Below are positions 6,685-61,169 of a stretch of 64,000 bases of DNA, one piece after another. Source of the stretch: Auriscalpium vulgare (lineage: Eukaryota > Basidiomycota > Agaricomycetes > Russulales > Auriscalpiaceae); contig JAHBBC010000010.1 in the NCBI GenBank assembly GCA_019915015.1, forward strand, positions 620,001 through 684,000, in the 5' to 3' direction. The position numbers and the translations under genes were made by a program. Position 1 is the stretch's first letter, and each line of letters starts with the position of its first letter. The notes beneath the pieces were generated by a model. That model ran no database searches. It was not told the origin of the DNA and saw nothing but the letters and a program-made list of their open reading frames with translations.

Positions 6685-9121
6685 CTACTTACGAGCACAT
6701 TTGTGCATCGTCTTATGCTCCTTCCAGCCCTCTTTCAGACACTGATTCTCGCAGAAGAAAGCACGGCCGCCACAGGATCCTGTGCGACAGACAGAGTTAG
6801 GTTCGCAAGCACATACGCCGAGTCGATGAGTCTCTCACTCACCGCCGCATTTCTTCCAGGGACCGGCATTTCCGCAGTTGAAGCATCGCTGCCACGGCCC
6901 TGCCTTGGCCGTCCGTGCCTCCTCCTCGACGTCGACACTATCAAAGTACCCACCCGGAACGTCCAACTTCAACTGCCACAAGTCGTTGAAGCTCCGCGTG
7001 AAGACGTGCTTTTTGCTCGGCACAAAGTCGGAGTTCGTGTATCCGCCAAAAAGAAACGTCTTGCCCGTATCGGGGTCAGAGAAGAGGGCTGCTTGGGCCC
7101 GGTACGTTGGGAACCCTTTCGAGATGACGAGCTTCCACTTTGGCGCCGTGCCATCGGCCGGAGTAGCGTCGTAGATGAAGGTGTCGCCGTGGTAGGTGAA
7201 TGGGAAGAACGTGTTGCCGGCGGGATACCAAGTGGGCTGGTTGGGACTGTAGCCGCCGAACACGACGGCCATGTTCAGTTTCGTATTCTACGCAAGAGCC
7301 AAATCAGACGATGAAATGAGAAAGCATGAAAACGGACGTACGAAGGTGTTCCCCATCTCTGACCGCGCACACGGTGGGTTTCCCGCCACCCTCTCCCTCT
7401 GCCAGAACTTACCAGCGATATCCCAGGTCCAACAGTCGTCGTAACCATATCCTAGCTGCGCGCCGTTCGCCTGGTGCGACTGCCTCGCACTCTGTCGATC
7501 CGCTTCGCCAAACATGATCCATATCTTCTTCTTCTGCCCGTCGACTCACATCGCCGCGTTTCTCCTGGGGCCCGGGGATAAAGGATCGGGTGTTGGAGAG
7601 GCAGGATCTCCAGATAACTTGTGCCAGCGACGTGTCTTCAGGTCCAGCGCCATCAATAGATCGCAGCCCAGCACGCAATGACGCAGCGTGCCGCCAAAGA
7701 CATACAGAGTCCCCTGCACAAGGATCATGGAGTATTCAAAGTGCTCGCTGCGCGAGAAGGGCCAGAGCGTGCGGTCAGGACTGGCCCAGGTGGTGGTGAC
7801 CTCGCTCCAAGTCTGCGACTGGAGGTCGAACACATCCAGGACAAGACGACCGGTGTAGAGGTAAGCCTTGTTTGTCTCCTCGTCGACGCACATCTTCCAG
7901 TTGAGCATCTGGCCATCGCCGCGGGCCGGCGGCGCGGGAAGCGTCACCCACGTATCCATCTTCTTGATGTCGATGTACTGAAGATCGCGATAGAATGGGC
8001 CGTCGATACCCTTCTGTCCGCCGGCGACGTAAAACCTTCCTGCTCATGCCGTGAGCTCGATCGCGCGGTAAGATGTCAAGTGACGCACCTTCCCATACAA
8101 AGCTGCAGAAAGATATGCGGGTGCTGATGCGCTGGGCGTCCTTGGGCAGTTCGACCTTCTGCCATGATCCCAGGACCTGGAGCTCGGGCACCGTCACCCG
8201 GAGCTTTGCGTTTATCTTCGGGTCGGGATGGCGGAACTTCATGCGGTCGTCCGCATCTATCCGCGGGACGATACCTTCTAGTACCCTTCGGTAAGGTACG
8301 ACAGAAGGAGGAAGCATATCGAGGCTGCAATGGGCACTCCATATGCGCCCGACGGCAGCAGAAGTGTTGCCGAGCGAGATGAAGACGTCGGATGCCCGTG
8401 TCAAAGCAGACGTGCGGCTCAAGAAGAAATCTTTCTGATCGAGAGCGCAGCTGTACCACTCTTTATGACCGTCAGCCTGCGCATGAAAGGAGAATGGACA
8501 TGGATACCTACCGAATACTGGTGTCGCTCTGAAGTGGTTGTTCTTGAATATAGTGTTCGATTCTTCGAGCCACGACAACGCCTAAGTCCTTGTCAGTGCC
8601 AAGCGCATATGAGCGCACCAGAAGAAACGCACCTCTTCCACCTTATTCGAACCGAGCAGACATTCTGCGATATTGTCGCAAAGTCCCAGCATAATGATCA
8701 AGTGGAAGGTGTCCATCTTGATGTACATTTCCGAGCGAACGCCGCCGCCATCCTGCACTGACAGCGGGACCGTGACACCCTCGCCGACGAGCTTGGTTAT
8801 AGCTTCCCGGAAATGCTTGTATGCGGCGTCAAATTGACCGGACCTGACGAGAGCGGCGCCTTGCGTTTGAAGATCGTGGACCTCTCGCGGACCGCGCAAC
8901 AAGGTCAAGGCTACATGGGTAGAGATCTGGTTATTGTCCTGACGATTCCAGCCATTGCAAAAGAACTCACGGATCTCCTCCCGGTTGAACAAAGCGCGGC
9001 CATTGGAGGCGTGTGCATGTGGCCCATCACCACTGAGCGCGCGCACAAGTTCAGTCATCATCGAATCGGTTTCGAAGCCTTCCAAGTCGCGCAGGTCCAA
9101 GGGTCGCGATCGATTGCTCAT
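6685..9121 (-). CDS. Kelch-repeat protein with N-terminal TPR-like region and C-terminal MYND zinc finger
   Basis: The ATG at 9121 opens MSNRSRPLDL. The N-terminal exon is helical and TPR-like (AALVRSGQFDAAYKHFREAI; about residues 60-180). The middle of the protein is a Kelch propeller, seen as spaced Gly-Gly blades: FYVAGGQKG, LYVFGGTLRH, MAVVFGGYSPNQ and KTFLFGGYTNSD. The last two exons make a MYND finger, with CFNCGNAGPWKKCGG joined across an intron to GRAFFCENQCLKEGWKEHK and MHKC, giving the C-x2-C, C-x3-C, C-x3-C and His/Cys ligands. The stop is at 6685-6687. MYND fingers mediate protein contacts, and Kelch propellers likewise bind partners. This combination is common in basidiomycetes, but its function is not established. 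It has at least seven introns. The fold assignment is confident; the role is unknown. Confidence 0.85.
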
Positions 9122-9710
9122 ATTGAGTTTCGTACGAGGAGAGTAAGAGTGCAGGAGTGACAGGCCAATTCAGCTGGGGGAAAAAAATCGGTCGCGCTGT
9201 TCGCGAATGTGGGGTGATACGCCTTACCTGGAGAAAGTATAGAGTTGAGTTGAGAACCAAAGACCAAGTTGGTGAACGGGAGAGAATGCGGGAGTTAGGA
9301 GTCGGGATTGGTGTTCTGTGGTGAGTCGCCCTTGACTATTTATCCCAGCGGCCCACAAAGGGAGTGGCACGAAAAGCCCGCACGTGAGACATTGTTTTTT
9401 GACTGAAGCCATTCTTTCCAGCTTGATGGCATGAAGCGTTGCATGGCGGTGAAGGTCACAGACAAAGTACTTGCGTTCACAACAGAGCAATGCGCCATCA
9501 AAACAAATAATTTCTCAGGCTTGACCGGCGCGCGTCGTCGGCCAATGGCAATAGCAAGAATACACACCCAAGCTATATTGAATAACGACAACAACCTGCC
9601 TGAAGATATGAAGTGCGTAATGGGCAATTGATATAAGACTATTGAGCGGACGAAGAAGAAGTATCCGAACACACAGCGTATCGCTAGAACTGCAAACCTT
9701 TATCAAGGGG
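9122..9710. other. Intergenic between two minus-strand genes
   Basis: Promoter side of the Kelch-MYND gene (9122-9350, pyrimidine-rich) and 3' flank of the SNF2 gene. No coding content could be supported. Confidence 0.5.
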
Positions 9711-13222: not shown

Positions 13223-14430
13223 TCAGCCCTGTTCGATATCGTTCAGCAGCTCATCGTCGCCGGCCAACAATTCCAAGCCAAACTCCTGCGCAGCCAAAAA
13301 GATCAGCGAAGGGTCGCGGTAAACGGATATAGAACACATACGAACTCGTCGACATCTGCAGGTTCCACGAAGCCTGTCGATGGAGGCTTGGTCTCCTGCA
13401 CAACCGGTTGCGTCGTCGTCGCGATCGCTCCGGGAGGAGCAGAGACTGCCTCCTCCACTGCTTTCTTCCGCATCGCTGTCTCGACTGCGCGTCGCAGCGC
13501 ATCCCAGTCGGGTTCCGGAACCTCCGGGAGAGTTGCGCCCAAGTTCGCCAGCGCGTCCGCGCCTTCGTTGCCTTGCTCTCCCTGGTGGCCGTACACATGC
13601 TGCAGCGCGACCTTGCTCCCGCTCTTTTGGTGCCGCTCATCGAGAAGCGCGGCGAGATACTTGATCAACTGCACGTTCTTCACGGGCGTCCCACCCGCGG
13701 TGCGCCAGCCTTTCCGCTTCCATCCCGGCAGCCACTTCTGAACACCTGAGGTATCTGGTTGGCGGGGGAAAAAGCGACAGGAAGGAGCAGCCACGTACAG
13801 TCGATTGAGTATCGCGAGTCGGATTTGATGACGAGCGGGCGGGAGGAATGCGGCGTGGTTTCGAGGATGCGGATTATGGCAATAAGTTCGGCGCGGTTGT
13901 TGGTCTGATCTCCCGGGCAGCGCTCCGCCAGATTTCTGAGGGAACGTCAGGAAAAGGCGAGTGTGAGAGGGCATAGAACGCACCGCGGGTCGTCACTGCC
14001 CCACCACACTCCAACTCCGGCATAAGAGCCTTTCTGGCCATTGCCCCTGCACGATCCGTCGGAATAGACAATGTCTGAGTCGGAATCTATTTGCGTTGGC
14101 ACTGGCAGCGGTGCCCGTGCAGACGTCGACGCTACGGCCAATTGGTTTGTCGGACTAGGCTGGGCGATGAGCCGCGCGTGTTCAACCAATGCGCGCGTTT
14201 TCGACGCGAATACTTCGTTGGGAGAGCGCAGGTAGTCTTCCGCCTTGTCGCGAGTGGGAAATTTGTGGTACTTGCTTCCCGGGTACCCTTTCGTCTGAGC
14301 TTCGCACTCCGGCCTGAGTATGGCCCCATTGGAAGGCGCCCTCAAGTCGGTTGAGAACGCACCATGTATCAAAGATGCCTGTCTTGCGACCTTTCTTCAC
14401 CGCGTAGCAGTAGCCAGCAGCTTTGGGCAT
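13223..14430 (-). CDS. Ribonuclease H1
   Basis: The enzyme cleaves the RNA strand of RNA-DNA hybrids in nucleus or mitochondrion. The start is the ATG at 14430. Residues 1-50 form the hybrid-binding domain (YCYAVKKGRKTGIFDTW, intron, ECEAQTKGYPGSKYHKF), the caulimovirus-VI-like fold of eukaryotic RNases H1. A linker follows, then the catalytic domain with all carboxylates visible: Asp in VYSDGSCRGNG, Glu in NNRAELIAII, Asp in VIKSDSRYSI, and the His/Asp pair in HVYGHQGEQGNEGADALAN. The C-terminal tail ends EFGLELLAGDDELLNDIEQG with the TGA at 13223-13225. It is about 330 residues with four introns. Its first 100 bp upstream are shared with the deaminase genes next door (see the module at 14441). 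Confidence 0.92.
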
Positions 14431-14440
14431 GTCTTCACGA

Positions 14441-14543
14441 GAGTTGCGACAAGTTGCACGCTGGGACCTTCGCGTGCGCGAAAAGAAAACGAGGAATTTC
14501 TTGGTAGCTATTGCACGTCGATGGATGTGAGAAGAGAGTGACG
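14441..14543 (-). promoter_or_regulatory. Upstream module shared by RNase H1 and the deaminase genes, with E2F/MBF-like box
   Basis: This segment, immediately upstream of the RNase H1 ATG, aligns by eye with 23151-23240 (upstream of deaminase copy C) and 29569-29660 (upstream of copy D). In shorter form it also aligns with 17651-17705 (copy A). Shared text includes the purine-rich TTCGCGTGCGCGAA core and the block TTCTTGGTAGCTATTGCACG. On the minus strand the core reads TTTTCGCGCACGCGAA, which resembles the TTTCGCGC/ACGCG sites bound by E2F and by yeast MBF at G1/S genes. The regulatory role is inference. Confidence 0.5.
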
Positions 14544-14699
14544 CTCTCATGCATGCAGGAGTTACCGTTGCTAGTGGGTGACAGAGGAGGACAAGAGGAG
14601 GATGCTTCAGAAATAGAATCAGAGACGCGATCCGACGCCCGCTAGACACCCGGATTGAGGTTAGGGTGATGATCCTGGGTTGTGGTTAAGGTCGGTTTG

Positions 14700-15166
14700 C
14701 ATGATCCGTTTATAATATATCGTAGTCTGTAGCTCGCCTCGACCTAGTACTGTAATTGTGGACGGGATGGCGGGGATAAATCTGGATGCGTCGGGACGCA
14801 GTCGGAACGTTTGGTGTTGACTGTCCTCCGATGAGGCGAAATTGTGTACTACAAGTACAGACTGCACGATGTGAGGTTGAGGTCAAACCGTCAAATGGTA
14901 CGCATGTCAGGCTCATTGAATGACTACCATATCTCAGCTTTATCAGGCTTTATCCCGTCGGACCATCGAAGGAATGAGCCACCTAGTCATATCGTGCGAT
15001 ACGGTACACTTTACAATGGTGCCGGCACAGTACATCGACTCACTGACTCGGGATAAGACTCGCAACGATGCCGCTCGTATCCTCGTCTCTGTCCGAATCA
15101 TCTCGTGACCTGCACCCATAGAGGATTAATGTCAAATCATGCAAATTGCAATCGGAAGACGTGGTA
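14700..15166. repeat. 3' flank module of deaminase cassette (copy A)
   Basis: Text from about 14715 (TATCGTAGTCTGTAGCTC) and especially 14970-15166 (for example GACTCGCAACGATGCCGCTC, ATCATCTCGTGACCTGCACC) recurs downstream of copy B (17890-18060), of copy C in shorter form (20615-20695) and of copy D (27200-27450). The duplicated unit therefore included the 3' flank as well as the gene. Confidence 0.7.
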
Positions 15167-17331
15167 CTATTTCATTTGCCCGAGCGCTTGTTCGAGTACT
15201 ATCGCCTTCGATGCTTCGCGGATGTATTCGAGGACTTCCGGCGTGACATGCAGCTCGCCTGAGCTCCGCGCGGAAGTTTGCGTGCTTCCAGCGTCCCCCT
15301 TCCCTGCGGCAACTTCAGCCAGAGTGTTCATGAGGTTTCGAAGGAGGTCTCGGAGGAACTCGATTGGTATACCGAACTGCGGAGGATACCAAGGGAAGAT
15401 CGTCGCGTGGCTGCCAAGCAGCAAGATGTCCGGCACTGGCGCCTTCCGTTCCGCGTCAGCGGAGCCCTTGTGCTTCTGCAGCCAAGTATAGAGCTCCCAG
15501 CAACAATAGCAGCATTTCTTGCTGACCCCAATAGGCGCTTCGTGGGTCTGGCAGTAAAAGGTGTCAGTATTAGAGATGCAGTCACAGCAGCTCAAGGAAG
15601 CACTGACGTTGAATATGGAACTGAGAACATTGTCGTCGTCTCTGACATCCACCTGTTGCCGAGTGCGCTGGGCCGCGTCCGGGGAGGAGAATGCACATGC
15701 GAGCGCCATCATTCCTGCCTCCGCATGGACAGTACTGGGCTGACCCATGCCGAGCTTCAGGTGCCTTTTCAGAAACCCCTCGGCCTCATTTTTCTGTGCA
15801 TTTGTGCCCTCGACGAGCGCAAGGACGGATTCGATGAATGCCGGCTTCTTTGAATCGAAGACCTCTGCGCTGAGGACCTGTTGCGGGAGAGTGACGAGGT
15901 GCGCAGTGAGCGGTGGAGGGAGCTTGTTTTTCCTGGCTAGGAAGTAGATAGCGGTGGCAGGGGCAGTTATTGTCTTCAGATAGCGTATCACATGGTGGCC
16001 GATTGGCTCTTTTGGACCGCGGCGATCATCCGCTGCTAAGGGGCGTCTGAGTTTCGAAACCCGGGGAGACAATCATGACGCGTACCAGTGGCGTCCTCTT
16101 CATTGAGGTCGGGACCACCGTCAACACTCACATCGGGAGTCCCGCTTCCGCTATCCACAGATAAACTACCTAAATCGCGGGGTTAGACAGCCATAACATG
16201 CCAAGATGTAGCGGCGTACTGATAGCAGAGGAAACTAGAGTGTCAGGATCAGCAGGCTGCTTTGTGGCAAGGTCGATCGACAACGCTTCGTCTTGGAAAA
16301 GAACTTCGAGGAAGCTCGAGTGAAGGAAGCCTCGGAGGCATTCAATCCCAAGCATAGCGGCTGCGATGTCGCTTGGCGCAGGGGGATCTTTGAACGTCGA
16401 CGTTTCGGTGAACGGCGACTGGCCGATCAGAAACAGTTTCTCGAAGTCGCGGTATGTCGAAGTAAACGCTTTGATCCACTTCGGAACCTCTTCCGCCGTG
16501 ACAGTATATGCGGCAGCGTTCAGTGTCTCAGACGGCCGAGAGATGCCATACTCTTGGAGCTTCTCGACCGTGAAAGCACCGTTGACATGGATCGTCCAGG
16601 GTTCAGATTGTGTGAAGGGCTCCCCGGATTCCACGCGGGTTTCGAGCACGGCGATAGGGTGCCTGCCCCAGACCTTTTTGCGGTAGAGGTTGAGCATCCG
16701 AGATGCGATCTTGGGATAGCCATGGTTGAGGTAGTGCGCGCAGAACAGCCCTACACTGACACCAGTGTCGGGGAGGGCACTGCTCTGAAAGTCCCTGATG
16801 ACGGTAAACACGTCCTGGAAGTGCTGATCATGGCTGATGGCGAACAAGAGTTAGGGGAGGGTCGTCAGTCAAAAAAAGGAGAACGCACGGTCGCGTCCTC
16901 CATGCAGCGAGAATCTCGTGTCCCGTCAACGGCGACTCCAGAGGCTCTACTTTTATCTCCAGCGCGTCCGGCTGCTCCGACCACCCCCGAGTATTCTTGA
17001 CCGCGAGCACAAGGCTTTGTATCCCCCGCAAGGGATCCGTAGCCCCTGTCGCTGCGATGACCCTTGAAGCCCGTATGTCGTCTCGCTCCGCACGGCTGAG
17101 GTTCTTGGACGTCCCAGTGGTGAGGAGTGTGACGACATGCTGCATCGCAGTGAGGCTACTTGGCAAAGGTTTGTCTGCGACGTGCGGCTCTCCCGACCGA
17201 ACTCCCTTGAGGGCCACTGTCGCCATGCTGATCTGGATAGCAAGGTCATCGAATTCAAGCGAGGACGGATGGGACGGTGATTGGGAAGTGATCGGAGTGT
17301 CGCTCGAAGCCTCAATATGAGGGTCGGACAT
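15167..17331 (-). CDS. OTT_1508-like deaminase-domain protein, copy A
   Basis: The start is the ATG at 17331 (MSDPHIEASSD) and the stop is at 15167-15169. Five exons encode about 640 residues. The N-terminal exon (17331 to about 16905) ends HEILAAWRTRP. A helical exon follows, from about 16825 (HDQHFQDVFTVIRDFQSSA) to about 16235. Next is an acidic linker (SSLSVDSGSGTPD, NEEDAT) and then the deaminase half, beginning AADDRRGPKEPIGHHVIRY. The zinc ligands and general base of the deaminase fold are visible: HAE in VHAEAGMMALACAF (15719-15727) and paired cysteines in IGVSKKCCYCCWELYTW (about 15500-15514), split by an intron at 15548-15607. The tail GSHATIFPWYPPQFGIP is conserved in all copies. 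This pattern is that of the fungal OTT_1508-like deaminases, predicted nucleotide or nucleic-acid deaminases of unknown substrate. The gene appears intact. Confidence 0.85.
15548..15607 (-). other. 60-nt intron between the two deaminase active-site motifs (copy A)
   Basis: In copy A this GT-AG segment is 60 nt long and open, so it can be read through. The corresponding segments are 59 nt in B and shorter again in D, and reading them as coding shifts the frame before the CCYCC motif. The length changes show it is an intron. Branch-like CTAATACTGAC sits before the acceptor. Confidence 0.75.
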
Positions 17332-18052
17332 GGCGAGTCCTGCTAGTCCTGCTAGTGGTCCTGGCTGCATGCGCGATTTCGCGCCGATTTCGCCTTGTTC
17401 GGTCTGGAGCTCCGATTCGGATCACGTCTCGCCGCGCCGCCAGTTCATCTACAGTACAGTGAATAGATTCCCGCTACGTTTTGATACATAGTGGGTTATA
17501 GGGCTCAGGCCCTACTCCCTACTATGTAACGGCTTGCTCGAGGTTTCGCACCGGCAGTTGATTCAAAGATCTTGTTCATTCACTTTACATAGCGGGGCCC
17601 GTGCTCGCAATGGCTCGATGACTGCGCGATCATTCAGGACTCCTCTCCTCACCAGAGTTGGCGACAGGATCGAGTTGGAAGCGGAGACCTTCGCGGGCGC
17701 GAAATAACAGCGTGGCGAAAGTTTCGGCAAATCCGATTTGATTGGTACAGTACATCTGAGCGCATCATTTTTCAGTAAAGCCATGGGTCTGGGAGTCAAG
17801 GCATTGGATGCTATTTCTGCAGAGTAGGAGCGAGATTCAGACTTCTGACTCATTGAATGGCGACTATTTCTGAGCTTTATCTCGTCAGACCATCGAAGGA
17901 ATGAGCTATTCATTTCGTGCGATAAAGTACACTTTACAATCGTGCCGGTACAGTACTCGCGGCTCACTGAGGGATAAGACTCGCAACAATGCCGCTCGTC
18001 TCCTCGTCTCCGTCCGAATCATCTCGTGACCTGCACCCACAGAGGAATAACA
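17332..18052. repeat. Cassette flanks between copies A and B
   Basis: 17332-17460 is the 5' flank of A, and 17620-17830 matches 23095-23400 upstream of copy C. The A version lacks about 85 bp that C keeps, between CGAAATAA and CAGCG. 17870-18052 is the 3' flank of copy B. An E2F-like TTCGCGGGCGCGAAAT lies at 17690-17705. Confidence 0.65.
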
Positions 18053-20198
18053 TCAGCTCATGCAATCGGAAGACGTGGTACTATTTGTCATTTGATAGCG
18101 CTGCATTATCGCCTTCGCTGCTTTGGCAAAGTCTCTGCTAAATTCTTCGCTGACCTCCAGCTCGTCTGAGCTTCCGACGCCCACCTTCTTTTCAGCAGCT
18201 TCAGCCAAAATGCCCTTGAGAGTTTTAAGGAGTTGACGGAGGAACTCGATTGGAATACCGAACTGCGGAGGATACCAAGGAAATATGGTCGCGTGGCTGC
18301 CAAGCAGCAAGATGTCCGGCACTGGCATTTTTGGTTCCACGTCAGCGAAGCCCTTGCGCTTTTGAAGCCAGGTATAGAGCGCCCAGCAACAATAGCAGCA
18401 TTTCTTGCCGACACCAACAGGCGCTTCGTGGCTCTGGCAGCAAAAGGTGTCAGTATTAGAATGCAGTCACGGCGGCTCAAGGAAGCACTGACATTGAATA
18501 TGGAAGTGAGAACATTGTCCTTGTCCTTGACAACCACCTGACTGCGAGTGCGCGCGGCCGCGTCCGGAGAGCAGAACGCACACGCGAGCGCCATCATTCC
18601 TGCCTCCGCATGGACAGTGGGCCGATACAGACCGATATCCACGTTCTTCTCCAGAAACCCCTTGGCATCATTTTTCTGTTCCTTTGTGCCCTCGACAAGC
18701 TCATGGACGGATTCGATGAATTCCGTCCTTTTCGACTCGAAGGCCGTTGCGCTGGGGACCGGTTGTGGCAGAGTGACGAGGTGCGCAGTGAGCGGTGGAG
18801 TGAGCCCGCTTGCCCTGGCTAAGGCGTAGATAGCGGTGGCAGGGGCAGTTATTGTCTTCAGATAGCGTATCACATGGTGGCCGATTGGCTCTTTTGGACC
18901 GCGGCGGTCGTCGGCTGCTAAGGGGCGTTTGAGTCTCGAAACCCGGGGAGACAATCATGACGCGTACCAGTGGCGTCCTCTTCATTGAGGTCGGGACCAC
19001 CGTCAACACTCACATCGGGAGTCCCGCTTCCGCTATCCACAGATAAACTACCTAAATCGCGGGGTTAGACAGCCATAACATGCCAAGATGTAGCGGCGTA
19101 CTGATAGCAGAGGAAACTAGAGTGTCAGGATCAGCAGGCTGCTTTGTGGCAAGGTCGATCGACAACGCTTCGTCTTGGAAAAGAACTTCGAGGAAGCTCG
19201 AGTGAAGGAAGCCTCGGAGGCATTCAATCCCAAGCATAGCGGCTGCGATGTCGCTTGGCGCAGGGGGATCTTTGAACGTCGACGTTTCGGTGAACGGCGA
19301 CTGGCCGATCAGAAACAGTTTCTCGAAGTCGCGGTATGTCGAAGTAAACGCTTTGATCCACTTCGGAACCTCTTCCGCCGTGACGGTATATGTGGCAGCG
19401 TCCAGTGTCTCAGACGGTCGAGGGATGCCATACTCTTGGAGCTTCTCGAGCGTGAGATCACCGTTGACATGGATCGTCCAGGGTTCAGATTGTGTGAAGG
19501 GCTCCCCGGATTCCACGCGGGTTTCGAGCACGGCGATAGGGTGCCTGCCCCAGACCTGTTTGCGGTAGAGGTTGAGCATGCGAGATGCGATCTTAGGATA
19601 GCCATGGTTGAGGTAGTGCAAGCAGAACAGCGCTACATTGACGCCAGTGTCGGGGAGGGCACTGCTCTGAAAGTCCCTGATGACGGTAAACACGTCCTGG
19701 AAATGCTGATCATGGCTGATGGCGAACAAGAGTTAGGGGAGGGTCGTCAGTCAAAAAAAGGAGAACGCACGGTCGCGTCCTCCATGCAGCGAGAATCTCG
19801 TGTCCCGTCAACGGCGACTCCAGAGGCTCTACTTTTATCTCCAGCGCGTCCGGCTGCTCCGACCACCCCCGAGTATTCTTGACCGCGAGCACAAGGCCTT
19901 GCAAGGGATTCGTAGCCCATGTCGCTGCGATGCCCCGGATGTCTCGCTCCGCATGGCCGACTCGGAGGTTCTTGGACGTCCCAGTGTTGAGGAGTGTGAC
20001 AACATGCTCAATCACAGTGAGGCTACGCTTGACACGTTTATTTGCGACGTGCGGCTCTCCCGACCGAGCTCCCTGAAGGGCCACTGTAGCCATGCTGATC
20101 TGGATAGCAAGGTCATTGAATTCAAGCAAGGAAGGATGGGACGGTGATTGGGAAGTGATTGAAGTGTCGCGCGGAGGTTCGATATGAGTGTTGGTCAT
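18053..20198 (-). CDS. OTT_1508-like deaminase-domain protein, copy B
   Basis: Architecture and intron positions match copy A. The start is the ATG at 20198 (MTNTHIEPPRDTS) and the stop is at 18053. The helical exon (about 19707-19110) and the acidic linker with its introns are nearly identical in DNA to copy A at a constant offset of 2882 bp. The N-terminal exon (NLRVGHAERDIRGIAATWAT) instead resembles copy D. HAE lies in RPTVHAEAGMMALACAF (about 18610), and the cysteine motif in VGVGKKCCYCCWALYTW follows a 59-nt intron. The C-terminal tail (KKVGVGSSDELEVSEEF) is shorter and unlike the other copies. All exons are open, so the gene is probably functional. A palindromic TTTTCGCGAAAT lies at 20369-20380, about 170 bp upstream. 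Confidence 0.83.
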
Positions 20199-20692
20199 GG
20201 CAGGTGTCATCCGTGGCGTAGATTTAGTATGTTTTTGTATACTCGAAAAGCGCCGCTGCGCGCGGCAGCTACCTTGCCCACTGAGAGGGGGCATACTTAA
20301 TTTGGCGACACACAGGCCAGAACTATGTTCTTAGACAAGTTACAACGCACATGTTCTGTCAACGCCTCTTTTCGCGAAATAGCAGACCGGAAGAAGCCGA
20401 GAAGCAGACAGAATAGGAAGGCGCAATAGAAGGTAATACAGCGCCGTCTGCGTGGCACGGGCCCCCGCTATGTTCTCGATGGGACCCCTGCGGGTTGTTA
20501 TCTAATCCTATCCTATCCTATCCTGGTGGTACCGGTCCTGGTTGAATGCGCGATGCTACTGATTCAGAGCTTGTTCATTCAGGGGTTCCAACTGCTCGAG
20601 TCCCTTTCAATGACTCTCCGAATCATCTCGTGACCTGCGCCCACAGGGGAATGATATCAACTCTAGCAGTCGAAGACGTGGAAGAACTTATT
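20199..20692. other. Spacer between copies B and C
   Basis: It contains the 5' flank of B with a TTTTCGCGAAAT palindrome (20369-20380), a short CCTAT tandem run (about 20505-20524), and from 20615 the 3' flank module of copy C in shortened form. No gene. Confidence 0.55.
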
Positions 20693-22884
20693 TCATTCGC
20701 CCAAGCGCTCCTTTATCCCCATCACTGCTTCGAGAAAGGCTCGTCTGTCATCTTTGCTGACATCCAGCTCGCCTGAGCTCCGCGCGGAAGTCTGCGTGCT
20801 TCCAACGGCTGCCTTCTTCGCGGCAGCGTCCTTCGCGGCAGCTTCGGCCAAAATGTCCTTGAGAGCTTTAAGGAGGTCTCGGAGGAACTCGATTGGAATA
20901 CCGAACTGCGGAGGATACCAAGGGAATATGGTCGCATGGCTGCCAAGCAGCAGGATGTTCGGCACTGGCACCTTTGGTTCCACGGCAGTGGAGCCGTTGC
21001 GCTGTTGAAGCCAGGTATAGAGCGCCCAGCAACAATAGCAGCATTTCTTACTGACACCGATAGGCGCTTCGTGGCTCTGGCAACAAAAGGTGTCAGTATT
21101 AGATATGCAGTCAACGGCAGCTCAAGGAGGCACAGACCTTGAAAATGGAAGTGAGAACATTGGCGTTGTCCTCGACAACCACCTGGCTCCGAGTGCGCTC
21201 GGCCGCGTCCGGAGAGCAGAACGCACATGCGAGCGCCATCATTCCTGCCTCCGCATGGATAGTGGGCTGGTCCGGGCCGAGTTTCACGTTCTTGTCCAGA
21301 AACCCCTTGGCATAATTTTTCACTTGGTTTGTGCCCTTGACGAGCGCACGGACGGAGTCGATGAAAGCCGTCCTTTTCGATTTGAAGGCCGTTGCGCTGA
21401 GGACCGGTTGCGGCAGAGTGACGAGGTGCGCAGTTCAGGGAACCGGCTTGCCCTGGCCAGGGAGTAGATAGCGGTGATAGGGGCAGTTATTGTCTTCAGA
21501 TAGCGTATCACATGGTGGCCGATTTGCTCCTCTGGATTTTGGCGGTCATCTGCTAAGGGCATTTGAATATCGAAACCCGAGTAGATATTAATGACGCGTA
21601 CCAGTAGCGTCCTCTTCATCGAGGTCGGGATCACCGTCGCCACTCGCATCGAGAGTCCCACCACCGTCACCAGTCACATCGGGAGTCCCGCTTCCGCTAT
21701 CCACAGATAAATTACCTGAATCGCAGGATTAGACAGCCACAAAATGTCAAGATGTGATGAGCGACGTACTGAGTACAGAGGAGGTTGTGGCAGGATTAGC
21801 ACGCCGCTTTGCAAGGGCGAGCGTCAATGCTTCGTCTTGGAAAAGAACTTCAAGGAAATTCGAGTGGAGGAAGCCACGGAGGCATTCCAACTCAAGCAAA
21901 GCGTCTGCGATGTCGCCTTCGGCAGGGGGATCTTTGAACGACGACTTTTCGGTGAACGGGGACGGGCCGAGCAGTAACAGTTTCTCGATGCCGCGGTATG
22001 TCGAAGTAAACGCTTCGATCCACATCGGAACCTCTTCCGCCGTAACGGTATATGAGACGCTGAGGGTCTCTGTCCCAGACGTCCCAGAGATGCCAATGGC
22101 CATACTTTTGGAGCTTCGCGCACGTGAGGTCACCGTTGACATGGATCGTCCAGGGTTGAGACTGTGTGAAGGGCTCCCCGGATTCCAGACGACGTTCTAG
22201 CACGAATATAGGGTGCTCGCCCCAGACCTTGTTGAAGTAGAGGTTGAGCATGCGAGATGCGATCTTAGGATAGCCATGTTTGAGGTAGTGCAAGCAGAAC
22301 AGCGCATGATTGTCGCCTTTGCTGGGGAGGGCACCGCTCTCAAAGTCCTTGAGAATGGTAAACACGTCCTCGAAATGCTTCTCATGGCTGTCGACGGGCG
22401 AGAGTTACGAATGGTCGTCGGCAAAAAGGATGAGAACGCACGGTCGCGTCCCCCATTCAGCGAGAATCTTTTGTCCCGTCAACTGCGATTGCAGAGGCTC
22501 TACTTTTATCTCCAGCGCGTCCGGCTGTCCCGGACAGCGCCGAGTATTCTTGACCGCGAGCACAAGACCTTGTATCCCCCGCAAGGGATCCGTAGCCCCT
22601 GTCGCTGCGATGACCCGTGAAGCCCGTATGTCGTCTCGCTCCGCACGGCTGAGGTTCTTGGACGTCCCGGTGGTGAGGAGGGTGACGACATGCTGCATCA
22701 CAGTGAGGCTACTTGGCAAACGTTTCTTTGCGACGTGCGGCTCTCCCGACCGAACTCCCTTGAGAGCCACTGTCGCCATGCTGATATGGATAGCAAGGTC
22801 ATCGAATTCATGCGAGGACAGAAGGGACCGTGATTGGGAAGTGGTCGGAGTGTCGCTCGAAGGCTCGATATGAGGGTCGGTCAT
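20693..22884 (-). pseudogene. OTT_1508-like deaminase-domain gene, copy C, with two frameshifts
   Basis: The start codon is conserved at 22884 (MTDPHIEPSSD) and the layout is that of copies A and B. Two indels break the frame. In the helical exon, about 22054-22105, copy C carries roughly 10 extra bases relative to B (3 plus 7), so the frame shifts between KLQKYG and YTVTAEEVP. At 21431-21450 it lacks 7 bp relative to B within the start of the deaminase half, between SLARAS and LTAHLVTLP. The catalytic parts are still recognisable: PTIHAEAGMMALACAF (about 21260), and the CCYCCW segment with its tail. The acidic linker also carries an extra repeat of about 36 bp. The copy is probably non-functional as a full-length protein; the intact N-terminal exon could still be translated. 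Confidence 0.75.
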
Positions 22885-23400
22885 GGCGAGTCCTGGTACA
22901 GTAGTGGTCCTACACACGTCCCGCGTCCCGCCCGGCGCGCAGCCTTCAGCTACAGTACTGTAAATAAATAGATTCCTGTTACGTCTTGAAGTTTTTAGGG
23001 CTCAAGTCGCCCACAATGTAACGGCTTGCTAATAACGGCTCAAGTTTTCGCTCTTGTTCATTCGCTTTACATAGCGGGGCCCGTGCTCGAATGGCTCGAT
23101 GACCGCGCGATCATTCAGGACTCCTCTCCTCACTAGAGTGGCGACAGGATCGAGTTGGAAGCTAAGACCTTCGCGTGCGCGAAATAAAAATGAAAAATTT
23201 CTTAGTAGCTATTGCGCGCGATGGATGTGAGAAGAGAGGGACGGCGACGATGAGGGGATCTTCTGTCAGCGCGGCGAAAGTTTTGGCAAATCCGATTTGA
23301 TTGGTACATCTGAGCGCACTTCATTTTTCAGCAAGCAGAAAGGCAATGTGTCTGGGAGTCAAGGCATTGAATGCTATTTCTGAAGAGTAGGCGCGACAGG
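22885..23400. repeat. 5' flank of copy C including the shared upstream module
   Basis: 23045-23400 matches the flank upstream of copy A (17575-17830), with the E2F-like TTCGCGTGCGCGAAAT at about 23170-23185. Similarity to the cassette ends near 23400. Confidence 0.65.
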
Positions 23401-26400
23401 GCGCACCCGGGAGCTCACCCTGCAGTCATTCAGCAAAAGGCACACACCAGAAATCTCTCCGTCTGTCTGAGGATGGTCACCTAGCGATGGGATAATCGGG
23501 CATCAGTGTGCGGTCATATGGTGGTCAGAAGACGGGAAGACATGGAAGCGAGATGAGCGTCGGATGCAGGACGTGGTTGAGATCAGGTTTACGCGCGGTA
23601 CGAGAAAACTGCAGTACCGCATTCTTCCTCCCGGGCGTTGACACCTTACGCTGATCGCTCTTGCACAAATAACCTACAGATGTAGTCCGCATTTCATCCG
23701 CACCGTTGGCATCGCTTGAGCTCGTTCTCAGTCTTACGAAGGCCCTTCTGATGGCGCCACAAAATCGCACCGTCATCATTAGCTTTGCCGCGGGACCTCA
23801 GCGAGGCGTCAGAGCGATGTGGGAACCACTCACAGGCGACGCACATGCGCCGATTCCGAGGCCGCAATCCACCGTTATGGGCCTTGAGGACGAGATGCAC
23901 TAGTACGGACGAGATGCACTAGTACGGACGAAAGGTCGGGGCGTGCGCTAGTATAGCTCAAGTCCTACAGCGACAAAACAGTTCGTCAAAGCCCTACAGC
24001 CGCTCCAATAATATGAGACACGCACCAAATATGACAGATGACGCCCTTCGATCGGCGGCAGGGACGGAGGGCGAACGGGCACAAAAAGTCCGCGATGCAT
24101 TGGAACCAGACTAGAGATAGTCATCAGATAGGTTGGGCTCAATTACAATGCCCGAGGAACGGCAGACAAAGAGCGCCCCCGGTTTCGCCAATGAACTTCC
24201 CACCATAGGAGCTGTTCAAACGCCGTCTCCATTGAAGGTCTACGGTCGTATCACATCATCTCGCAACGCGGACGCCATAAAGCCCTGTTCGGTCAAGCTA
24301 GAGTGAGTCAGAACTCGGCTATGCGGAAACTCGAGAGCCTGAGCGCGCACCAATCTGCAGAAAATAATGTTACCCGCTTGCCCGCGTTTCTTGCATCGTG
24401 AGTCCCCCCGCGTACCGATGACCTGAGACGATGGGTGCATAGTGACTCACGCGGATCAGAGCTGCCAGTCGGAAAGCACTGGAGACAAGTCGGGAGCTCT
24501 CGACTCACGATCCTGGACAGATGTGACGGGCCCGGCGGTGTTGCCGGTTGCAAGATCGTCGTGATATTCTGTGCTCTGCGGTAAGTCGGCCAAAGGAACT
24601 CGCAGTCAATACGAGTTACTTACATTCATGGTGGAGGCTTCAAGACCCTCTCACTGAACGAGTTGGTGTTCAAAAAAAGGCATACGTAGGTTCCCACGCG
24701 TACTGGAAGACCCCGAGGTATATCCGCCGCCAGCAGCCACTCGGAGGCGTCGAGGCCCACGACGACGACGACCATTCGTCTACCTTCACTTCCACAATCT
24801 GCAGCTGGAGAGTGCCACCGCTATTTCCCCCTCGATGCGTCTCGTCAACTCGCATCGGACAACTGCTCGCCTGGATGTGCAAAGTGTAGTGGAGGGATGT
24901 CCGATGCGGGCGAAGGCTAGATCGATGGGTGGGATGTATGCTGGCAAACGGTGCGCGCTATGTTTGATGAGCTCAGAGCTGGCGTATGCGTGTTGACATG
25001 TATTGCTCGTGCAGGACGACAACGTAGGATGACGTTCGTTTAGGCTTGCTCCCAAGAACTCTGGCTGGACCTTTAGACAGGACAGTCTGGACGTCGCAGC
25101 AGACATGATTGGGGGTCCCGTCGAGGCCGAAGCTGGAGGTGGATCTAGGCTAGATGATATGGTGCGTAGCTCCATGCTACTGTCTCTGTTTCCTCTTGTA
25201 ACTTGACAGGTCTTGCAAGCTACCAGTCCGGTCGACGGTGCCTCGTATCGCCCGGCCGACTATACTTCGTCGCCTGCTCACAATCTCTGCACATTGAGTG
25301 GTATTTGAGCAATTTCTGCGAGGCGATTCCACACTACGGAAAGTGTACATCGATGCTGAGGTGCGTATCATTGCACACATATATACGCTGTCCTCACACT
25401 AGCATGCTATTTGTCGTCGACAGTACTCTCATCGCGACCATCCCAAATATATTCTCGCTACGAAGGGGCTCCAAGCATTGGCCGCTAGCATCGACGCCGC
25501 GGTGCATACATCCATTGCGACACAACGCTCCCGATGTTCGTGGTCCGCGAAGGGCTCGTTTTGGTCGAGTTACAAACCGGAGGGACGATGGCAGAGCTCA
25601 GAATAGCCAACTTTGAACATGCGAATGGTGTGTGGCGAGCCCCTTGAGCACATTCCGACGAAACTGACGACACGCTCGAATAGCCGATATAGCAGTAAAG
25701 GATCTCTGAGACCACGAACCTGACGGCAGCCTGCGGGGCCCCAGCAAGTGCGTTTATTCACCAATTAGTCATACCGTTATATTGACGCGGACAACCTAGA
25801 AGATCTGCTAGTGGCCGGCGATCTCATGTGGCTCCTGAACCTTCAATTCGCAGAACATCTGCGCTAGGACGATAGCGCGCGATCCTCAGTCGGTGAGATG
25901 TGCTGGAGAACGAAACGCGCGCCGGAGAATACCGTCGAGGCACTGGGCCTTTTGTCGCTATTAGCCATCAATGAACTAGCTGGGCTCTCAGACGGCCGCG
26001 CATCTGCGAGGCTTGAAATTCACTACTCCGCCATCACAGCCGCTCGCTTCGTCACCCACGGGCCACGGTGAGTACGAGAACACCCTCGGTCGACCGTGAT
26101 TTGGATTGCGGTTGATCCGAATACGACTACCAAGCAGGCGCACCACGCTTCCCCAGATATCCGACATCCCCAGAGCCAACGGAATTGAGGGTGCGGTTGT
26201 CGAGTAGGCTCTTAGATCCACACCGCCGATGCTCGTCATCGACGACACCGACCCCACCCACTATCTCCGCCGCTTTCTTACCCCAGCACTCGGCATGTCC
26301 ATCGCTACCGCGCTTGGTGAGAGCGCAGTGCTTCACGACTCGAATTGTCTGAAAACGGCCTCGGCGCACTGCATGCTCTGGGGGTCAATCGGCTGGATCC

Positions 26401-27180
26401 AACTCGTGGTGTCGCAGTCCCGCGCGTCGGCTTTGATACGGCAGCTCCGTAGAAAGTCAGCAGCAGCAGCAACGGTAACAGCGGCAGCGCCCTTCCCGGC
26501 CGAACCAGACGTCGTCCCAGGGATCGCAGGACTTGAAGGCGCGGGAGCGCGGGCCGCAGGGCATGACGCTCTGCACGTCCTCCCTGGCGAACCGTCAGAG
26601 GGCCATTGTCCCATGTGGTGCCGACTCCCAACGAGCCTGTGGATCAGGTTGATGTGCCGACAGAATCAATGTACTTCGCGTTCGACACGATGCCGCCGCC
26701 TAGATCTGAAGACGTGCTGAAGGCCATCGATAATATGTGCGCGGTGGTCCGAGATGATGATAATGGTGACCACTTCCGTCGTACAGCCATTCGTGAGTGT
26801 GCTGACAAGTTTGTGCTTCGGTGCAGGTTCTCGTGGCCCGAGGAGACGATGCCCGACGTGGCATTTGCGCAGAGCATGTACATACGGCAGGAATGCGCCA
26901 ACAAGCAACTATGTACTGTACATTTTCCAATCCGCGGAGGTCCCGCGCGGCTACTAACTCTCTAGCCATCTACTGCTCGGATATTCCACGACTATGAATG
27001 CTTGGATTTATGGATTCTGCGACGGATAACTTCATGACTCTCGCTTCTCTCTATTTACTCCCCCGTTTCCATATATTACTACCAATCTCAGAAGAATGTA
27101 TGAGTGCGTCACTACGTACTTCCCGCGTCGCCCTGTGTCTCTACTCTCACGTCTCCATCGTCTCCATTGGTATACGTCGG
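23401..27180. other. 3.8-kb unique segment between copies C and D, no confidently modelled gene
   Basis: This interval is unrelated to the deaminase cassette. Plus-strand stretches with some coding character are 24150-24300 (MPEERQTKSAPGFANELPTI, ending at a GTGAGT donor) and 26229-26965 (LVIDDTDPT, later TESMYFAFDTMPPPRSEDVL). None gave a continuous gene model or a family I recognise. A 20-bp direct duplication (GACGAGATGCACTAGTACG, twice) lies at about 23889-23930. I saw no transposase, reverse transcriptase or clear terminal inverted repeats. Confidence 0.4.
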
Positions 27181-27199
27181 TTTTCATGATGCAAGACCC

Positions 27200-27449
27200 G
27201 CTTATATCGTAGTCTGTAGCTCACCTTCGGCTATCAATCTGTGTGCCAGAATATCAGGGCGAGGAATGATCCGCCGATTCATTTCGTGCGATACAGTATG
27301 CTTTACAATCGTGCCGGTACAGTACATCGCGGCTCACTGAGGGATAAGATTCGTAACGATGACGCTCGTCTTCTCGTCTCCGTCCGAATCATCTCGTGAC
27401 CTGCACCCACAGAGGATCAACTCATGCAATCGGAAGACGTGGTACTATT
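27200..27449. repeat. 3' flank module of deaminase copy D
   Basis: It matches the 3' flanks of copies A (from about 14715) and B (TTTCGTGCGATA, GTGCCGGTACAGTAC, GAATCATCTCGTGACCTGC). Confidence 0.65.
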
Positions 27450-29542
27450 TCATTCGCCCGAGGACCTCTTTGTCACCTTCGAGAGTTTGGACCAGGCTAG
27501 GTTGGATTCGTCGCTGACATCCAGCTCGCCTGAGCTCCGCGCGGAAGTCTGCGTGCTTCCAGCGTCCCCCTTCTCTGCGGCAACTTCGGCCAGAGTGTTC
27601 ATGAGGTTTCGGCGGAGGTCTCGGAGGAACTCGATTGGTATACCGAACTGCGGAGGATACCAAGGAAATATGGTCGCGTGGCTGCCAAGCAGCAAGATGT
27701 CCGGCACTGGCATTTTTGGTTCCACGTCAGCGAAGCCCTTGCGCTTTTGAAGCCAGGTATAGAGCGCCCAGCAACAATAGCAGCATTTCTTACTGACACC
27801 GATAGGCGCTTCGTGGCTCTGGCAGCAAAAGGTGTCAGTATTAGATATGCAGTCAAGGAAGCACTGACCTTGAAGATGGAAGTGAGGACATTGTCGTCGT
27901 CCCTGACATCCACCTGATGCCGAGTGCGCTGGGCCGCGTCCGGCGAGGAGAATGCACATGCGAGCGCCATCATTCCTGCCTCCGCATGGACAGTGGGCTG
28001 ATACAGACCGATATTCACGTTCTTCTCCAGAAACCCCCTGGCATCATTTTTCTGTTCCTTTGTGCCCTCGACAAGTGCATGGACGGATTCGATGAATGCC
28101 GCCCTTTTCGACTCGAAGGCCGTTGCGCTGGGGACCGGTTGTGGCAGAGTGACGAGGTGCGCAGTGAGCGGTTGAGTGAGCCCGCTTGCCCTGGCTAAGG
28201 AGTGGATAGCGGTGACAGGGGCAGTTATTGTCTTCAGATAACGTATCACATGGTGGCTGATTGGCTCTTTTGGACCGCGGCGGTCGTCGGCTGCTAAGGG
28301 GCGGTTGAGTTTCGAACCCGGATAGATAATTATGACGCGCACCAGTAGCGTCCTCTTCATCGAGGTCGGGATCACCATCACCACTCGCGTCGGGAGTCCC
28401 GATTCCGCTGTCCACAGATAAACTACCTAGATCGCGGGGTTAGACAGTCATAAGATGTCAAGATGTAGCGGCGTACTGAGAGCAGAGGACATTAGAGTGG
28501 CAGGATCAGCAGGCTGCTTTGCAAGGGCGCGCGACAACGCTTCGTCTTGGAAAAGAACTTCAAGGAAGTTCGAGTGGAGGAAGCCACGGAGGCATTCAAT
28601 CTCAAGCAGAGCGTCTGCGATGTCGCTTACAGCAGGGGGATCTTTGAACGACGACTTGTCGATCAGCAACAGTTTCTCGAAGTCGCGATATGTCGAAGTA
28701 AACGCTTTAATCCACTTCGGAACTTCTTCTGCCGTGACGGTATATCTGACAGTGGCCAGTGTCTCAGACGGCCGAGAGATGCCATGATCTTGGAGCTTCT
28801 CGCGCGTGAGAGCACTGTTGACACGGATCGTCCAGGGTTGAGAATGTGCGAAGGGCTCCCCGGATGCCAGACGGCTTTCGAGCACGCCGATAGGGTGCTC
28901 GCCCCAGACCTGTTTGCGATAGAGGTTGAGCATGCGAGATGCGATCTTAGGATAGCCATGGTTGAGGTAGTGCAAGCAGAACAGCCCTGTATTGCCGCCG
29001 TTGCTGGGGAGGGCGCCGCTCTGAAAGTCCTTGATGACGGTAAACACGTCCTGGAGATGCTGCTCATGGCTGTTTGCGGACGAGAGTTAGGAATGGTCGT
29101 GGGTCAAAAGAAGGAGAACGCACGGTCGCGTCCTCCATGCAGCGAGAATCTCGTGTCCCGTCAACGGCGACTCCAGAGGCTCTACTTTTATCTCCAGCGC
29201 GTCTGGCTGTTCCGACCAGCCCCGAGTGTTCTTGACCGCGAGCATCAGGCCTTGCAAGGGATTCGTAGCCCATGTCGCTGCGATGCCCCGGATGTCTCGC
29301 TCCGCATGGCTGACTCGGAGGTTCTTGGACGTCCCAGTGGTGAGGAGTGTGACGACATGCTGCATCGCAGTGAGGTTACGTCTGATACGTTTATCTGCGA
29401 CGTGCGGCTTTCCCGCCTGAACTCCCTTGAGGGCCACCGTCGCCATACTGATCTGGATAGCAAGGTCATCGAATTCAAGCGAGGACGGTGATTGGAAAGT
29501 GATCGAAGTGTCGCGCGGAGGCTCGATATGAGGGTCGGTCAT
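27450..29542 (-). CDS. OTT_1508-like deaminase-domain protein, copy D
   Basis: The start is the ATG at 29542 (MTDPHIEPPRDTS) and the stop is at 27450. Five exons: the N-terminal exon like that of copy B; a helical exon (about 29070-28480) with in-frame deletions relative to A/B (LLIDKSSFKDPPAVSDIAD); an acidic linker (VDSGIGTPDASGDGDPDLDE); and the deaminase half in two exons. HAE lies in YQPTVHAEAGMMALACAF (about 27990), and the cysteine motif is SHEAPIGVSKKCCYCCWALY. The C-terminal segment up to GSTQTSARSSGELDVS is closest to copy A. All exons are open, so it is probably functional. It is separated from the other three copies by 3.8 kb of foreign sequence but keeps both cassette flanks. Confidence 0.83.
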
Positions 29543-29559
29543 GGCGGGTCCCCTAGTGG

Positions 29560-29700
29560 TACCGTAGAGTGGCGACAGGATCCAGTTGCAAGCTGAGACG
29601 TTCGTGTGCGCGGAATATAAATGAGGAATTTCTTAGTAGCTATTGCGCGTCGATGGTGGCGGCTACGATGAGGGGCGCGGCGGCTGCTGTCGGCGCTGTG
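29560..29700 (-). promoter_or_regulatory. Upstream module of deaminase copy D
   Basis: It aligns with the modules at 14441, 17651 and 23151 (GGCGACAGGATC, TTTCTTAGTAGCTATTGCGC). The E2F-like core is degraded here (TTCGTGTGCGCGGAAT). Confidence 0.5.
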
Positions 29701-60153: not shown

Positions 60154-61169
60154 ACAATTGCATCACACATGGCCGCGTTCTCCCGAGCATCGACGACATA
60201 CGCAACACTCACTCGCGCTAGTTATGCTTTCCGTCTGTTAAATACCTGGTATTCGATTTTGTGTAATCAGAGAACACATTTTGCACTCATTCCGAGTCGT
60301 CGACGTGGCTGGATGTGAGATGGGACACTGTCTTTCAACAGGGAGAGTTACTTAGTATTGCGCCGCGCTCACATGCGGACGACTTCAAGGTCGGCGTGAC
60401 GATTCGCATGGCTAGAAGATAATAGACATGAGGCGCAATTCGAACTGGTGGGAGCACAGCTGCGTACCGGCGACGCGTTTCTTGCGCATGAAGCCGAGCT
60501 CCTGGTACACAGATACGGGAGGCGCGAGTCTTCCGGCATGTCTTTATACTCAGATAGACTAGGTAAAGAGCACGGTGAGCTCGGACTGCTGTGCATGAAA
60601 CCCCAACAAATTGAATTGACCGCTGCCAAGTAGCGGTCCACGGGACCTTAATCCAGGGTTAGGGCCGCGACACCAATTGTGATTCCTCGGAGACGGGCCT
60701 TCAGACATGCACAAAAAAGACGAGCTCTCCATACAATAGAAAGTCTGTCAGCCATTCTAGAAACGCGCGTTGCGTCAGCGCATCCAAGACCGCCGAGAAG
60801 ATATAAGGGCTCACCGCCTTGCCCCGTCAGAGCGTTGCAACGCTTGACAACCCGCCTCCGCTCCCAAAACGTTTTTGCCTGCTGCATCAGAGACGCCAGC
60901 AACAGCCAGCACAGCGGTCCCCAGATGCCTAGAAAAGTACAAGGGCAGGGCCTTCCCGGACATCCAGGCGCGCGCCTTCAAGCAGCTCTTGGTGGGTCCA
61001 CGCGCAAGGGCAGGCGCGGCGGTGCGGGCGTGAAATGCGCTGGATAGAAGGCCCGAAGGCTGCTGAGATGTGTATTTAAGAAGGCGCTGGAGAACACTGT
61101 GCGTACCGTGCTTCACCCGTCGCATATCCCCCGTCCGACATCATCAGTCATCTTCACATCCAGGTCGCC
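60154..61169. other. Intergenic with promoter of the zinc-finger gene
   Basis: No gene I can support. A TATA-like GTATTTAAGA lies at about 61070-61079, roughly 95 bp before the ATG at 61170. Confidence 0.45.

Follow-up and report, generated by a model that had tools for sequence, protein, structure and literature searches.

We analyzed a 64-kb window (positions 620001 to 684000 of contig C10) of the 51.63-Mb, 96-contig genome of the basidiomycete Auriscalpium vulgare, which contains a tandem array of genes for putative OTT_1508-like deaminases. An original prediction, made from the sequence of the window, had placed four such genes here, three of them intact, and this arrangement was confirmed. 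Four homologous genes, A to D, are arranged head to tail, all on the minus strand, and share a structure of five exons; their gene bodies differ pairwise at 9.4 to 14.8% of nucleotides, a similarity far above chance. Exon-intron models were drawn without transcripts from conserved splice sites. The introns are of the GT-AG type, occupy conserved positions, and measure 55, 50, 53, and 60 nt in copy A, 55, 50, 53, and 59 nt in copy B, and 54, 50, 52, and 50 nt in copy D. Copy A (window positions 15167 to 17331; exons 17331-16889, 16833-16220, 16169-16086, 16032-15608, and 15547-15167) encodes 648 amino acids, with the HAE motif near position 15727 and the CxxC motif near 15511. The conserved fourth intron of this copy (15548-15607) happens to stay open, and for this reason the open reading frame of copy A contains intron sequence. 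Copy B (18053 to 20198; 642 amino acids), which is 82% identical to copy A, and copy D (27450 to 29542; 628 amino acids) also encode complete proteins. Copy C (approximately 20690 to 22884) is a frameshifted pseudogene with 7 nt gained in exon 2 and 7 nt lost in exon 4; its own frame stops after 312 amino acids, and the HAE and KKCCYCC motifs are still encoded.

The same two motifs were present in copies A, B, and D. The expectation that every copy would carry HAE and SKKCCYCCW therefore held for HAE and for the KKCCYCC core in all four genes but not for the first residue of the second motif, which reads GKKCCYCCW in copy B. A predicted acidic hinge was found in copies A, B, and D, where a segment of 47 residues contains 11 or 12 aspartates and glutamates and a single lysine or arginine.

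Further copies were detected elsewhere in the genome. A tandem pair, copies E and F, is located at positions 224320 to 231879 of contig C33; both are intact, encode 644 amino acids each, contain HAE and KKCCYCC, and have introns as in copies A to D. An additional array-type fragment is present at position 844003 of contig C12. In total, five of six near-complete copies in the genome are intact across the four introns, and multiplication of these genes within one fungus was borne out by the four window copies, the intact pair on C33, and the C12 fragment.

Membership of the OTT_1508-like family was examined with the Pfam profile OTT_1508_deam (PF14441), for which the curated cutoff is 27 bits; scores refer to spliced proteins unless a six-frame search is specified. 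Using hmmscan, copies A, B, and D scored 22.4, 13.0, and 22.8 bits (E values of 1.2e-4, 0.1, and 8.8e-5, respectively) and copies E and F scored 21.9 and 22.0 bits. The profile check proposed for the C-terminal region thus returned matches (E values of 8.8e-5 to 0.1), but these lay below the cutoff for all intact copies. In a six-frame search of the genome, copies E and F reached 27.1 and 27.3 bits only with neighboring matches in frame, copies A, C, and D had 20 to 22.5 bits, and copy B was not among the matches listed. A likely reason for the low scores is the spacing between HxE and CxxC, as the match begins only after HAE; this spacing is ∼51 residues in the array proteins, 47 to 48 in P0008, 36 in P0013, and 30 in P0014.

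Two relatives from other fungi scored above the cutoff, P0005 of Somion occarium (27.2 bits) and P0008 of Fomes fomentarius (28.3 bits), and both can be aligned with the N- and C-terminal halves of the array proteins, over most of their length, at 26 to 34% identity. Ten of 12 aligned family members, counting the unspliced frame of copy A, matched PF14441 at an E value of ≤0.01. All 12 rows of this alignment share the H and E of HxE, the leading C of CxxC, and a W; the second C is absent only in P0006. A profile of five relatives of the array subfamily (P0002, P0005, P0007 of Artomyces pyxidatus, P0008, and P0010 of Suillus subluteus), in which P0002 is the sole Auriscalpium sequence, was compared by hhalign with a profile of six canonical members; they aligned over 108 columns spanning both HxE and CxxC (E value, 1.5e-5; probability, 79.8). 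Assignment of the array to the OTT_1508-like deaminases, as originally predicted, is therefore well supported at the level of sequence, mostly by the relatives above the cutoff and by the link between profiles.

At least six loci besides those of the array type exceeded the PF14441 cutoff among the best candidates scored, with two each on contigs C2, C12, and C5. In the rows aligned, these canonical members have HxE, CxxC, and then a W and a P, as in the array. What sets the array subfamily apart is the longer HxE-CxxC spacing of ∼51 residues, together with paired cysteines (CC) at each of the two cysteine positions, a GSHA..PWYPP segment, and an extended N-terminal half. OTT_1508-like frames (HPEAR...CTKSPCVHC) adjoin the gene at C2:1078807, and the canonical branch is hence clustered as well.

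The N-terminal half was without a recognized domain, in agreement with the prediction: PF14441 was the only Pfam family matched by spliced copies A, B, D, E, and F and by P0002 at an hmmscan E value of ≤1. The unspliced first-exon frame of copy A gave a weak match to PF13579 (E value, 0.13). The same proteins gave no match, at the same threshold, to the deaminase families of ADAR and Tad2/Tad3 or to the double-stranded RNA-binding domain. In this respect they are unlike Tad2/Tad3-Ame1 and ADAR, with which they share the type of catalytic motif as described in the available text of PMC12754623. Nothing relevant was found with NCBIfam and PADLOC (for four and three relatives, respectively) or in a sequence search of solved structures, where one weak ribosomal match was obtained (E value, 0.14). 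Two AlphaFold models had mean predicted local distance difference test (pLDDT) scores of 51.9 and 61.7, which are too poor to judge the zinc site. In a low-confidence model, HAE and CxxC each open a helix, strands flank the second of these, and two extra helices lie between them. Foldseek and VIA-align searches with these poor models produced no match above noise and listed no deaminase, a result that excludes nothing.

The distribution of these genes was compared with that in a second A. vulgare deposit, represented by database proteins with FA95DRAFT tags. P0001 of this deposit was 99.4% identical to the N-terminal half of copy D over 339 amino acids, and P0011 was 99.4% identical to a C2 gene over 327 amino acids; P0012 matched the C2 genes at 82 to 97%, depending on the piece. 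Near-identical counterparts were lacking for P0002 (77% identity to copy E along its length and 91% for the best piece), for P0003 (best piece, 90%), and for P0004 (64%, with one short piece at 77%). The gene repertoire thus seems to differ between the two deposits, although the other record is fragmentary at these genes (the P0001 and P0003 contigs are ≤1.5 and ≤3 kb, respectively). P0004 does not include the motif region; CxxC, but not HAE, is missing from P0006 of Artomyces pyxidatus. These defects may be gene model errors or, for P0006, may reflect a degenerate copy. The Auriscalpium copies clustered in a 14-protein tree as one group separate from Artomyces, a member of the same taxonomic family (support, 99/99). 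This tree was drawn with a midpoint root and without copy C, and three long branches make its deeper forks unsure. From this sequence comparison, the duplications appear to be specific to Auriscalpium.

Comparison of the copies revealed a mosaic pattern of divergence. Over 2112 positions, copies A and B show 9.4% divergence, yet they share one identical run of 449 bp (16054 to 16502 in copy A, minus strand), a probable gene conversion tract that extends from the last part of exon 2 through intron 2 and the hinge-encoding exon 3 into intron 3. No run as long was obtained in 2000 permutations for this pair or for the 152-bp run of B/D; the numbers for the other pairs were 4 for C/D, 6 for A/D, 160 for A/C, and 389 for B/C, in shuffles that take no account of how constraint varies along the gene. 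The synonymous divergence (dS) between copies A and B was 0.075 in the N-terminal half and 0.257 in the C-terminal half. Copies E and F are almost identical at both ends of the locus, with 1.4% divergence over the initial 494 nt (5′ flank plus the beginning of exon 1) and 1.9% over the 3′ flank, whereas their coding centers diverge by 11.9% (Fisher P = 2e-26, with segment limits chosen after inspection of the data). At a finer scale, the two differ by 3.3% at positions 1970 to 2269 and by 18% at 2270 to 2369, and the four introns differ by 7%. This mosaic divergence is best read, from the alignments, as gene conversion in which coding centers were exchanged with those of other paralogues; for the E/F pattern, local hypermutation may be an alternative.

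The ratio of nonsynonymous to synonymous substitution rates (dN/dS) was 0.53 to 0.60 between arrays and 0.66 to 0.75 within arrays. Bootstrap values of ≥1 occurred in none of 300 replicates for A/E and D/F, in 1 for A/D, and in 4 for E/F. On these estimates, the proteins are constrained overall and only weakly so within arrays. Private changes were most numerous in copy C among the four window copies (128 in 2056 columns) and contained no one-sided excess of deamination; in this pseudogene, 20 were C to T, 18 were G to A, 16 were A to G, and 14 were T to C.

A function has been reported for members of this family in an ascomycete. OLD-1 and OLD-2 of Neurospora crassa, named after the OTT_1508-like deaminase, were described as adenosine-to-inosine (A-to-I) mRNA editors (Honda et al. 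2025, as cited in PMC12754623). According to the available text of that source, their main target is a UAG codon, edited to UIG, in the adjoining zinc finger gene zao, and edited sites lie in hairpin loops after a U; the OLD-ZAO module responds to mycovirus infection, and its activation is accompanied by growth defects, the harm being ascribed to the edited transcription factor. The Fusarium homologue of zao, CHE1, is reported to have three C2H2 fingers downstream of a conserved, edited UAG (PMC11169179), and a later commentary describes the antiviral role as indirect and its generality as unknown (PMC13327615). The statement that none of the copies has an assigned substrate accordingly remains true of the four window genes but is outdated for the family (PMC12754623). 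The array genes resemble OLD-1 and OLD-2, as these have been described, in having an OTT_1508-type domain with HxE and CxxC, in being duplicated, and in being nuclear fungal genes. Protein searches for array relatives recovered no named ascomycete OLD among the matches (best ∼8000 candidates scored in each).

We give a probability of roughly 0.5 to the reading that the array represents amplified, recombining, OLD-type (OTT_1508-like) zinc-dependent RNA editors without a ZAO neighbor. Because the characterized Neurospora members reportedly edit A to I, A-to-I editing of RNA would be the most likely chemistry of the array proteins. By analogy with Neurospora, the C-terminal domain would hold one zinc ion through the H of HAE and the two C residues of CxxC, with the E acting as a proton shuttle, and would convert adenosine into inosine at what are probably few RNA sites, in hairpin loops after a U. 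Selection of the RNA or binding of cofactors might be the role of the N-terminal half and the acidic hinge. At a further remove, the genes could function in conflicts with invaders such as RNA viruses, which would be the reason for the diversification of the copies.

Each OLD gene in Neurospora pairs with zao, and a zinc finger neighbor was therefore sought at the Auriscalpium loci. The array differs from the Neurospora arrangement in this regard. Pfam analysis of nine long frames of the window detected no zinc finger partner beside the array. The only strict C2H2 finger of the window (62328-62399) lies in a plus-strand frame at 61080 to 62576, ∼33 kb from copy D, and is no neighbor of the array. 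Stricter finger patterns gave no match in one set of loci and, in the window and loci L059 to L061, matched this finger and one chance-like site at L060 and nothing beside the arrays; a permissive pattern gave many meaningless matches in the window, including stop-containing ones. In the genome, the PF00096 match closest to an OTT_1508 locus was ∼16 kb from the C12 fragment (best 150 of 261 candidates). A GATA gene with two fingers on C2 (∼1086.4 to 1087.7 kb), between two canonical OTT_1508 genes, was rejected as a ZAO-like partner, as it is not of the C2H2 type and other frames intervene. For detection of a premature UAG in neighboring genes, frames between 8 and 38 kb of the window were reread with TAG, TGA, or TAA as sense in turn. 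Several frames were lengthened by TAG read-through. One TAG-joined frame (8003-9169, minus strand) was rejected as an edited partner, since its junction (GTGCGT...CTGAC...TTAG) fits an ordinary intron. By this comparison, the array genes may act like OLD, but the status of an OLD-ZAO module is not supported, as the neighbor rule fails. With no zinc finger partner beside the arrays, the targets would lie in trans.

The array is flanked downstream by an RNase H1 gene (PF01693 and PF00075; approximately 13303 to 14440, minus strand). In the spacer that separates copy C from copy D (23400 to 27250), no intact gene was recognized by eye. Pieces of it resemble many sites on contig C8 (776 to 1087 kb) and a few on other contigs, at 64 to 94% similarity; one of the C8 sites has kinase-like frames (DFGLSRYYD, by eye) with no Pfam match. 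The 5′ flank of copy D (29584 to 29656) is ∼85 to 89% identical to segments upstream of copy C (23134-23224), copy A (17654-17706), and the RNase H1 gene (14452-14524). A NOD-like receptor (NLR)-type gene is located at 37510 to 41612 on the minus strand and consists of an NPHP3_N/NACHT frame and, behind it, a second frame in which 14 WD40 matches fall in 129-nt units of 68 to 78% mutual similarity; the G+C content is 0.39 to 0.47 at this gene versus ∼0.53 to 0.57 nearby.

Several observations weigh against the interpretation of the array as OLD-type RNA editors. Every window copy fell below the Pfam cutoff, with copy B being without significance, and spliced copies E and F did so as well. The predicted fold lent no support to a zinc site (pLDDT of 61.7 and no significant structural match), and the longer HxE-CxxC spacing (∼51 residues versus 36 and 30) suggests that the substrate could differ. 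No C2H2 finger was found within 10 kb of any OTT_1508 locus in the genome-wide PF00096 search, among the best 150 of 261 candidates. Within the C10 array, dN/dS was not clearly below 1, as values of ≥1 were reached in 11 of 300 bootstraps for A/B and 15 of 300 for B/D. This weak constraint, the decay of copy C, and the defects of P0004 and P0006 (either possibly a gene model error) would all be expected if duplicates turned over rapidly without a retained function and the copies were for the most part degenerating products of tandem duplication and unequal exchange. We consider this explanation unlikely, since five of the six near-complete copies remain intact across four introns, the between-array ratios of 0.53 to 0.60 never reached 1 for A/E and D/F, and the motif is retained in the Somion and Fomes relatives.

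The HxE/CxxC site occurs in adenosine and cytosine deaminases alike, and the array proteins might instead, as members of the same family, deaminate cytosine in DNA or RNA as a mutator-like defense against transposons or viruses. Consistent with this, both cytidine-to-uridine and A-to-I changes have been reported in mushrooms, with the enzyme given as unknown in 2020 (PMC7306014, available text). We consider this possibility unlikely too, since no type of deamination was in excess among the private changes of the copies. To our knowledge, moreover, the sole characterized members of the family act A to I on RNA. Genes for recognition and killing often differ in repertoire and recombine, and the unmatched P0002, P0003, and P0004 and the recombination among copies could likewise fit self-directed effectors, that is, deaminases that kill or arrest the cell in allorecognition or an abortive virus response rather than regulating it by editing of few sites. 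The NLR-type gene, 8 kb from copy D, and the growth defects upon activation of the Neurospora module (PMC12754623) point in the same direction. The harm in Neurospora was attributed to the edited transcription factor in that text, the proximity of the NLR-type gene may be due to chance, and none was recognized near the C33 pair (by eye, in frames of ≥120 amino acids); we regard effectors of this kind as the least probable of these explanations.

If the reading of the array as OLD-type RNA editors is extended, mushrooms might run a ZAO-free, multigene OLD editing defense in which gene conversion swaps coding centers between near-identical flanks and yields isolate-specific editors aimed at viral or self transcripts. 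We advance this broader proposal as a doubtful one. The OTT_1508-like family and its fungal occurrence were already known, and its expansion in fungi was reportedly described by Iyer et al. in 2011. As far as the literature was searched, four features are new, namely, the tandem array, the mosaic pattern of its evolution, the difference in repertoire between the deposits, and the lack of a zinc finger neighbor; a full-text search by family name found no description of a tandem array or of recombination among family copies in the available text of PMC12754623, PMC13327615, PMC10711317, and PMC5640708.

Enzymes of mRNA editing in mushrooms were listed as unknown in the 2020 review (PMC7306014), and the available text of a 2023 search for editing enzymes in Coprinopsis contains no word beginning with OTT (PMC10532568). 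Genes of the OTT_1508 type are natural candidates for mushroom RNA editors, and the array supplies concrete genes. If the copies respond to viruses by editing RNA, the lack of a ZAO neighbor and a repertoire that recombines and differs between isolates would mark the Neurospora system as one form of a wider, fast-evolving fungal defense.

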